Assembly: GCA_028706715.1 (NCBI GenBank)
Contig: JAQTVQ010000007.1
Span: forward strand, 11,411-44,251
Direction: 5' to 3'
Origin: Minisyncoccota bacterium
GTDB lineage: Bacteria > Patescibacteriota > Minisyncoccia > Minisyncoccales > JAQTVQ01
DNA length: 32,841 nt
Shown here piece by piece: positions 1 to 17,229 of the stretch. Both the position numbers and the translations under genes were made by a program. The notes below the pieces were generated by a model that did no database searches, had not been told where the DNA came from, and was given only the letters and a program-made list of their open reading frames with translations. Position 1 is the first letter of the stretch. Every line of letters starts with the position of its first letter.

Positions 1-127
1 GTTTTGCTTCCATATTCTTGGATGTTCGCCAAGAATGTTTTTTCGGGTGCGGTTTCCATGTTTGGGAAAACCGCGGCAGGGTTGGATCCTGGTAATGGAT
101 CTCCCAAAAAAGGTTAAACTACTCTTT
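1..127. repeat. Copy 1 of a >=127-bp direct repeat, cut by the window edge; probably part of a structured RNA element
   Basis: Identical to 339-465. Internal hairpins: attcttgg/ccaagaat, gcggttt/aaaccgc, gatcc/ggatc with ggg/ccc. Confidence 0.9.
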
Positions 128-215
128 TTGCCTCGCTTCTTTCTGTAATACCGCCTCGTATCTCCCTCCTAGAAACCCTAAGAAGGAAATTTAAAACGGC
201 ATAAAAAAGGGAAAA

Positions 216-263
216 GATAGCCAGAGAGTCGTCGCGCTTTTACGCGAAGACTTCTGGCTATCT
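216..263. other. Long near-perfect hairpin between the two repeat copies; possible - strand intrinsic terminator
   Basis: agatagccaga (216-226) pairs with tctggctatct (253-263). Inner gtcgtcgcg (229-237) pairs with cgcgaagac (243-251) with one mismatch. Loop cttta. On the - strand it is followed by ttttcccttttttatg. Confidence 0.6.
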
Positions 264-338
264 ATAAAAAAGAACTGTTACAAGGCGATTATGCCGGATG
301 GAGCGGCTTCTCTGTTCAAGAAACCGAGAGGGAAGCTG

Positions 339-465
339 GTTTTGCTTCCATATTCTTGGATGTTCGCCAAGAATGTTTTTTCGGGTGCGGTTTCCATGTT
401 TGGGAAAACCGCGGCAGGGTTGGATCCTGGTAATGGATCTCCCAAAAAAGGTTAAACTACTCTTT
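339..465. repeat. Copy 2 of the >=127-bp direct repeat
   Basis: Exact 127-bp match to 1-127. The sequence after each copy (to ~200 and ~537) is diverged but recognisably similar: ACCGCCTCgTATCTcCcTCC..TTTAAAaCGG versus ATCGCCTCaTATCTtCtTCC..TTTAAAgCGG. Confidence 0.9.
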
Positions 466-564
466 ATCCGTCGGCTATAATTATCGCCTCATATCTTCTT
501 CCAAGCATAGCTTGGAAAGAAGATTTAAAGCGGTAATTTGTTTTTTGCAAATGAACGGCCGTAT

Positions 565-621: not shown

Positions 622-762
622 TTAAACCGTTGGAATCAATATTGAAAAGACAGCCTTGCTAAGAAGAAGGCTCATAATAATGACAAACAAAATAGCGCTA
701 TTGGTTATAGCTATTCTTTCAAAAACATTTATATCAATTTGCGATTTTACTGATGCGCTCAT
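622..762 (-). CDS. Small predicted membrane peptide, 46 aa (MSASVKSQIDINVFERIAITNSAILFVIIMSLLLSKAVFSILIPTV)
   Basis: Hand-translated ORF, ATG at 762 to TAA at 622. Hydrophobic central/C-terminal stretch. Flanked by TTGACA-17-TAATTT upstream and a terminator downstream. Below the size cutoff of the ORF track. Confidence 0.55.
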   Translation of the reverse strand: MSASVKSQIDINVFERIAITNSAILFVIIMSLLLSKAVFSILIPTV

Positions 763-826: not shown

Positions 827-856
827 TTTAAAAAATGCACCAATCGGATTGGTGCA
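827..856 (-). terminator. Rho-independent terminator (second of two)
   Basis: tgcaccaatc/gattggtgca perfect 10-bp inverted repeat around one base (836-856), followed on the - strand by TTTTTT. Confidence 0.7.
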
Positions 857-898
857 GATTGAAGCTCTTGGCAAGGAGCAGTAAAGTTTTTAAAATTT

Positions 899-937
899 AA
901 AAAAGGAAAGGCTGGGGGTGATGGCAACGCCCAGCCT
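899..937 (-). terminator. Rho-independent terminator overlapping the stop of the 936-1619 CDS
   Basis: - strand aggctggg...cccagcct stem (930-937 / 909-916) followed by ttccttttttt. Confidence 0.65.
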
Positions 938-1619
938 ATGATGCGGCAATTTTCTCTTCGGACGAAGGAAGGTCTATCCAGCTGGCGGCAATTATTAGAA
1001 CATCTCCTTCTTTTTTGATGTGAAAAGCAGGTTCATGTTCGCCGCTGTTAGGCTTAATTGAAGCTTTTTCCAGCTTCAGGCCTATGCTTCTCCATTGGAC
1101 CATGGCATATCCAAGGATAAAATCAGAGAGAGTTGTTTCTCCGATTTTTCTTTCCTCAAAAATAAAGCCTGCGGACTTTTTGTCCGGCTTTTTCTGCGAG
1201 CACGGCAAAGGCCTTATTCCGACAAGCTGATAATAGCCTGCGGCCAAAGGATTATCCGGCCTTATAAAATCCACTTGGTATCTTGTGGCTTTAGGATCCA
1301 TGCCCAGCCTCTTAAGAATAGGCCCAAGGTCGTTATGGATTCGCATCCAAGAAACTACCTCCACTCCTCCGCTAACCCTTAGATTGGCTTGGAAAATGTC
1401 GCTTATGCTTTTTCCTGCGAAACGATTAAGCAAAGCGTATTTGCTCGGTTCGCCGAAGGACTTTTCTCTCGCCGATACTTCCACTCCGTTTTTTTCTGCT
1501 CCTGTTTTCATCTCTTTCGTCTCCCGTATATGGTTTTGCAAATGAACTGTTTGAGCAAGGCCGCGTCTGCCATCAGACATATTGCTTGCTCTTGAATATT
1601 CCCTAACGGATCCATTCAA
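936..1619 (-). CDS. Hypothetical protein, up to 227 aa; the start is uncertain and the internal ATG at 1511 has a better upstream purine stretch
   Basis: Long ORF with its own promoter and leader upstream and terminators downstream. TTG start at 1619; in-frame ATG at 1580 and 1511 (…gggagacgaaagagATGAAAACAGG). No family recognised. Confidence 0.7.
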   Translation of the reverse strand: MNGSVREYSRASNMSDGRRGLAQTVHLQNHIRETKEMKTGAEKNGVEVSAREKSFGEPSKYALLNRFAGKSISDIFQANLRVSGGVEVVSWMRIHNDLGPILKRLGMDPKATRYQVDFIRPDNPLAAGYYQLVGIRPLPCSQKKPDKKSAGFIFEERKIGETTLSDFILGYAMVQWRSIGLKLEKASIKPNSGEHEPAFHIKKEGDVLIIAASWIDLPSSEEKIAAS

Positions 1620-16781: not shown

Positions 16782-17130
16782 GGGGGCGATTGTTTTGACA
16801 GAAAAATTCTTTTCAAAGCAAGCAAGCCGAGCTTGATAAGCGGCTCGCAAATATGCTTATCAAAAGTATAAGTGCCAACTTATTCAAAAAACCCGCATTA
16901 GCTTTAGCTTAATGCCATCCGCCAGCCGATTCTCAATAAGCTTCAGCGGGTGTCGATCATTGAGATAGGCAGCTGTCTTTCCTAAAACAGCAGCCGAACA
17001 GGCTTAGGATAGAAAAGCTGAAATTTTTGCCTGTTGCATATTCAGTTTTTCAAAAAATCAAAACAGGCTAAGCTTGTAGAAAACTTTGGATAATTTTTTT
17101 GGACGGGGTTTCAATACCCCCGCCTCCACC
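16782..17130 (+). ncRNA. ssrA: Transfer-messenger RNA; tag ORF 16874-16912 encodes ANLFKKPALALA*
   Basis: 5' GGGGGCG pairs with 3' CGCCTCC; 3' end GGACGGGGTTTCAATACCCCCGCCTCCACC; tag ORF GCC AAC TTA TTC AAA AAA CCC GCA TTA GCT TTA GCT TAA; next to smpB. Confidence 0.93.
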
Positions 17131-17229
17131 TCGTAAGCTTAATTTTTGCTTTAGACTTAAAGATGTCCCCTTTAAGCAAAATTATTTAAAAAGAATTAAA
17201 TTTAAAAAGAATTTATTAAGAGGATATAC

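Follow-up and report, generated by a model that had tools for sequence, protein, structure and literature searches.

A tandem pair of orphan genes for a standalone structured noncoding RNA, each about 270 nt long and encoded on the minus strand, is our preferred reading of the left end of the window (the whole 32.8-kb stretch analyzed, C7:11411-44251, from the 755-kb, 24-contig genome G000), and we give it a probability of about 0.62. Each RNA would comprise a 5' hairpin (P0), a copy-specific closing region (P1), and a five-hairpin core, and a terminator-like hairpin comes after each; the element would be transcribed, and each copy would end at its downstream hairpin. An earlier note on this DNA had proposed a noncoding structured RNA, a view that is supported by the fold statistics, by pair-preserving changes in P0, and by the absence of a coding signal. 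The features are as follows, in window coordinates unless another sequence is named.

1-202, minus: in-window part of copy 1 (core at 1-127, P1 5' arm at ~128-146, P0 and outer helix at ~149-202)
~C7:11100-11183, left of the scaffold gap: remainder of copy 1 (37 nt of core, P1 3' arm, and tail)
160-190, minus: P0 hairpin of copy 1, ATTTCCTTCTTAG / CTAGGAGGGAGAT; pairing probabilities 0.93-1.0
203-263, minus: terminator-like hairpin after copy 2 (hairpin at 215-263, then TTTTCCCTTTTTT); 77-nt fold of -32.9 kcal/mol
265-535, minus: copy 2 of the element, ~270 nt, consisting of P0 (5' hairpin), P1 (closing region), the identical core, and the 3' tail CTTGTAACAGTTCTTTTTT (~265-283)
284-299, minus: P1 3' arm of copy 2, predicted to pair with 466-488
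302-465, minus: 164-nt core
304-326, minus: P5 hairpin, CGGTTTCTT-GAACA-GAGAAGCCG, with two G.U pairs; complete on the minus strand only
331-349, minus: P4 hairpin, GGAAGC / GCTTCC; pairing probability 0.98-1.0 in both copies
352-374, minus: P3 hairpin, ATTCTTGG / CCAAGAAT; pairing probability 0.85-1.0 in both copies
376-449, minus: P2, TTTTTTGGG / CCCgAAAAAA, enclosing P2a (423-439) and P2b (387-412)
466-488, minus: P1 5' arm of copy 2; GGCGAT/ATCGCC and the P0 base are competing pairings
493-524, minus: P0 hairpin of copy 2, ATCTTCTT-T-CCAAGC-TAT-GCTTGG-AAGAAGAT
575-595 (L005:6986-7006), no strand assigned: bidirectional terminator-like hairpin, which on the minus strand closes the unit preceding copy 2
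L005:6009-5986, minus: terminator-like hairpin with a T-rich tail after copy 1

Repeat length and copy number

The locus had been described as carrying an exact 127-bp repeat. The identity stands (window 1-127 and 339-465 are identical), but the length does not: the true repeat is 164 nt (window 302-465) and is 100% identical to a left copy at C7:11147-11310. More specifically, a 100-N scaffold gap lies just left of window position 1, the piece to the left of this gap carries the full 164-nt repeat at its end and stops exactly at the repeat end, and the window starts exactly 127 bases before that point. Upon comparison of the ends of 20 contigs, we found seven other contig-end pairs in G000 that overlap by exactly 127 bases; 127 bp is thus the k-mer overlap of the assembler and not the true repeat length. 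(These seven overlaps would allow several contigs of the assembly to be joined.) Most likely, window 1-127 and C7:11184-11310 represent one physical stretch of DNA, and therefore the genome would hold two copies rather than three; copy 1 as described here was joined across the gap by this k-mer argument.

It might be supposed that an assembly artifact accounts entirely for the apparent exact repeat, given that 127 equals the k-mer overlap and that window 1-127 comes right after the scaffold gap. We consider this highly improbable, because a full 164-nt core is present both left of the gap and at 302-465, with flanks that differ on both sides, so that two copies survive removal of the overlap. 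As far as the two-copy claim goes, the artifact reading is refuted; it is supported for the apparent third copy, which we ruled out as k-mer overlap. Two physical copies of the core with differing flanks are thus the most likely arrangement, and a longer array is possible. The upstream flanks of the two copies differ in length by 13 nt, which is no multiple of three, and the GC content is 46% in the element versus 34% in the adjacent intergenic DNA. Beyond this locus, the case shows that an assembler k-mer overlap is able to produce an apparent exact repeat.

Fold, strand, and pair-preserving change

The consecutive hairpins reported earlier for the repeat, at least three in number, are present, and the core folds beyond dinucleotide shuffles, with z-scores of -6.0 on the minus strand and -2.9 on the plus strand; on the minus strand its minimum free energy (MFE) structure equals the centroid. 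Likewise, the 252-nt unit (284-535) reached -92.7 kcal/mol on the minus strand (z -7.95, 0/200 shuffles as good); the palindromic nature of most stems made its plus-strand fold exceed chance as well (z -5.1). Among 262 strand-windows across the 32.8-kb window, the unit ranked first on the minus strand (-7.7) and second on the plus strand (-5.2). The tmRNA, used as a control, scored -4.8 when read on its own strand versus -1.7 on the opposite one, i.e., the same statistic picks the correct strand, and the element on the minus strand surpasses this control. The strand, which the earlier note had left unresolved, is now settled toward minus by these z-scores and by the P0 pairs, and the models are in favor of a minus-strand RNA.

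Six hairpins (P0, P2a, P2b, P3, P4, and P5) showed high pairing probability in both copies, and for the latter five most pairs had a probability of at least 0.9 in both. Values for P5 were 0.97-1.0, with 0.67-0.74 for its closing pair. P2 itself is swapped for another pairing in the MFE fold of copy 1, and P1 is weaker, with alternative pairings. The minus-strand loops (ATTACCA, CGAACAT, AAAACCA, AAACAT, and GAACA) are A/C-rich.

The best evidence for a structured RNA appears to be P0, which lies outside the identical core. This diverged module had been proposed to form a hairpin in both copies, weakly so in copy 1; it does form in both, but copy 1 is not weak, since it has a 13-bp helix on the minus strand. 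On this strand, 13/13 aligned pairs are standard in both copies despite 7 substitutions at the 26 paired positions, with two-sided changes in 2 of the 13 pairs (RNAalifold counts one more near the loop). The probability of keeping all 13 pairs under random change is 0.0005-0.006. On the plus strand, P0 of copy 1 retains 10/13 pairs, with three A.C mismatches. For the joined copies, RNAalifold returned 72 pairs, 3 of them with two-sided change and 0 broken. Only two sequences are available and their cores are invariant, so covariation lends the core structure no support. That the core is fully identical while the flanks have diverged suggests recent homogenization, which would have proceeded via duplication or gene conversion, rather than selection on every base, because even stems tolerant of compensatory change are identical.

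As to the closing helix, the one proposed for copy 2 proved real by shuffling on the minus strand, where only 2-23 of 1,000 shuffles paired as well, depending on flank length. For copy 1, the earlier prediction that sequence left of the copy should pair was borne out in its letters, since TTTGCC and TTTCTG on the right-hand side of the core find partners in CAGAAA-atc-GGCAAA, but not beyond chance (on the minus strand, ~120-140/1,000 shuffles as good with 25- to 35-nt flanks and 329/1,000 with 45-nt flanks). Matched flanks paired better than swapped flanks on both strands.

Relatives, known families, and gene context

Regarding a family of such RNAs, we detected no homologue beyond G000 in the order, in the class and phylum samples, or in pattern scans. 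The covariance model suggested as a check in related genomes was built (R1) and recovered only its own locus among 247 genomes of the order and 384 of the phylum; blastn against 196 genomes of the order and 387 of the class returned only chance matches inside genes, weak DNA matches in G131 and G742 being dismissed on this ground; and no relative was confirmed when genome and viral collections were scanned for patterns. R1 was built on two sequences, and distant homologues would escape these searches. The one same-genus genome retains metG and an orf227 homologue and lacks the element; a gene for a 684-aa protein follows the orf227 homologue where the element would be. A lineage-restricted element is the best reading of this pattern.

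The element also appears undescribed: comparison with Rfam, likewise suggested as a check, matched no family over it. Rfam 15 applied to the whole window at the gathering cutoff reported only the tmRNA (16782-17131), and a search of C7:10999-12199 with E up to 10 gave only sub-gathering matches, nearly all of them on the neighboring terminator-like hairpin. A diverged bacterial SRP or RNase P RNA is not supported, as the element matched neither family with E relaxed to 10; the RNase P RNA of G000 lies elsewhere (C2:22649-23018). Separately, a search of G000 for the small SRP family only (RF00169) detected no such RNA, RNase P RNA and tmRNA being present. A type III toxin-antitoxin RNA (ToxIN-like) is not supported either, since no endoribonuclease toxin gene is adjacent (the neighbors being tatD, metG, and orf227, the last without a significant Pfam match) and no open reading frame (ORF) of the kind expected for such a toxin lies between the copies.

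The element is intergenic, and its neighbors metG, orf227, and tatD are also on the minus strand. Terminator-like hairpins on this strand stand before copy 2 and after each copy, and for this reason the unit looks freestanding rather than like a tatD leader; the hairpin at 215-263 has no U-run on the plus strand. Immediately upstream of copy 2, the minus strand showed no clear promoter, and promoter-like sites occur between copy 1 and tatD. An exact 14-mer (GTTCATTTGCAAAA, minus strand) occurs at 543-556, just upstream of copy 2, and at 1534-1547 in the 5' part of orf227, with no other exact copy and one mismatched copy in the genome; a shared promoter or operator was considered, and the match is possibly due to chance. 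Several further observations concern the neighborhood. A homologue of orf227 (936-1619, minus strand) with 43% identity was found in the same-genus genome only, among 60 genomes of the order. A small ORF of 46 aa (622-762, minus strand; MSASVKSQIDINVFERIAITNSAILFVIIMSLLLSKAVFSILIPTV) probably encodes a one-helix membrane peptide, and directly 3' of it is a 41-bp imperfect hairpin ending in a terminator-like stem. Two related terminator-like elements flank the locus on the minus strand (L005:5935-5975 and window 834-870), both consisting of GCTTCAATCT, then a CCAATC arm, a second arm GATTGGTG, and a T-run.

Alternative readings and possible role

Other explanations would assign the repeat to DNA, to a protein, or to the regulation of tatD. 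A DNA-level hairpin repeat, i.e., a remnant of a miniature transposable element or a REP-like palindromic unit in which folding matters, if at all, as DNA, is in keeping with palindromic stems able to fold in either strand (z -5.1 and -7.95), with the 100% identity of the cores, and with the absence of the element from the corresponding place in the sister genome. However, P0 of copy 1 is intact only as minus-strand RNA, its G.U pairs being A.C on the other strand, and the element matched no phage or plasmid, has no transposase in the sequence read beside it, and has no dispersed copy in the 755-kb genome, where a full-length match occurs at the tandem locus only and the other matches (26-49 nt) are due to chance or self-complementary. 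The lack of dispersed copies speaks against the mobile element entertained earlier, and a MITE, REP, or other mobile repeat was rejected for that reason; we regard the DNA-level reading as improbable. Even less credit is due to a duplicated cis-acting leader or attenuator of tatD: the element shares the strand of tatD and lies ~300 nt upstream, but terminator-like hairpins separate copy 1 from tatD, promoter-like sites lie in between, and there are two full copies with another terminator-like hairpin separating them. A small protein gene or its remnant (plus frame AASLFKKPRGKLVLLPYSWMFAKNVFSGAVSMFGKTAAGLDPGNGSPKKG* or minus frame METAPEKTFLANIQEYGSK) has in its favor one 50-codon open frame that runs through the core to a shared stop. 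Against it, codon scores in all six frames are non-coding, close to the 5th percentile for genes of the window or lower, the element's frames have no Pfam match, the upstream flanks differ by a number of nucleotides not divisible by three, and tblastn confirmed no relative in genome or viral contigs; homologues with a kept frame, or with kept stems but a broken frame, were found in neither form. The earlier view that there is no convincing ORF holds, and a coding origin seems very unlikely.

Under the preferred reading of a tandem RNA gene pair, the closest likeness is in arrangement. The tandem sibling sRNAs PrrF1/PrrF2, OmrA/OmrB, and AbcR1/AbcR2 are related RNA genes side by side, and the element similarly appears to be two related RNA genes in one intergenic region with near-identical and divergent parts; unlike OmrA/B (82-88 nt), it is ~270 nt long and far more structured, and the likeness drawn here is one of layout (PMC4211561). 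Two highly similar putative noncoding genes in tandem are what we found, and the terminator-like hairpins agree with small-RNA transcription. The rare "unnamed IGR" structured RNA candidates of intergenic-region pipelines offer a further comparison, from which the element differs in having two paralogues in one genome and limited pair-preserving change (PMC8632094).

The pair may act in trans as sibling sRNAs. Our best guess at the mode of action, held only tentatively, is a scaffold or sponge in which rigid, A/C-rich loops of 5-8 nt would contact a protein or target RNAs. A GGA loop motif defines sRNAs of the CsrB/CsrC type; unlike these, the element lacks a repeated GGA loop, and its loops are A/C-rich. 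What it shares with these protein-sequestering sRNAs is a series of strong hairpins exposing short loops and the presence of multiple copies, csrB being duplicated as well (PMC6262261). Rather doubtful is a bolder reading, in which a Patescibacteria-type genome would encode a hitherto undescribed class of standalone structured RNA that has a new biochemical role (e.g., as a protein-sequestering or scaffold RNA) and whose family would be too diverged or too rarely sequenced for a two-sequence model. Streamlined, mostly uncultured bacteria of the CPR/Patescibacteria type, to which the earlier note inferred this genome to belong and with which its size and gene content agree, seem to have few known regulatory RNAs, and we found none in the literature. 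If the reading of a tandem RNA gene pair is true, metatranscriptomes could be searched for a specific target, namely a folded RNA of ~270 nt whose two copies lie between terminator-like hairpins.
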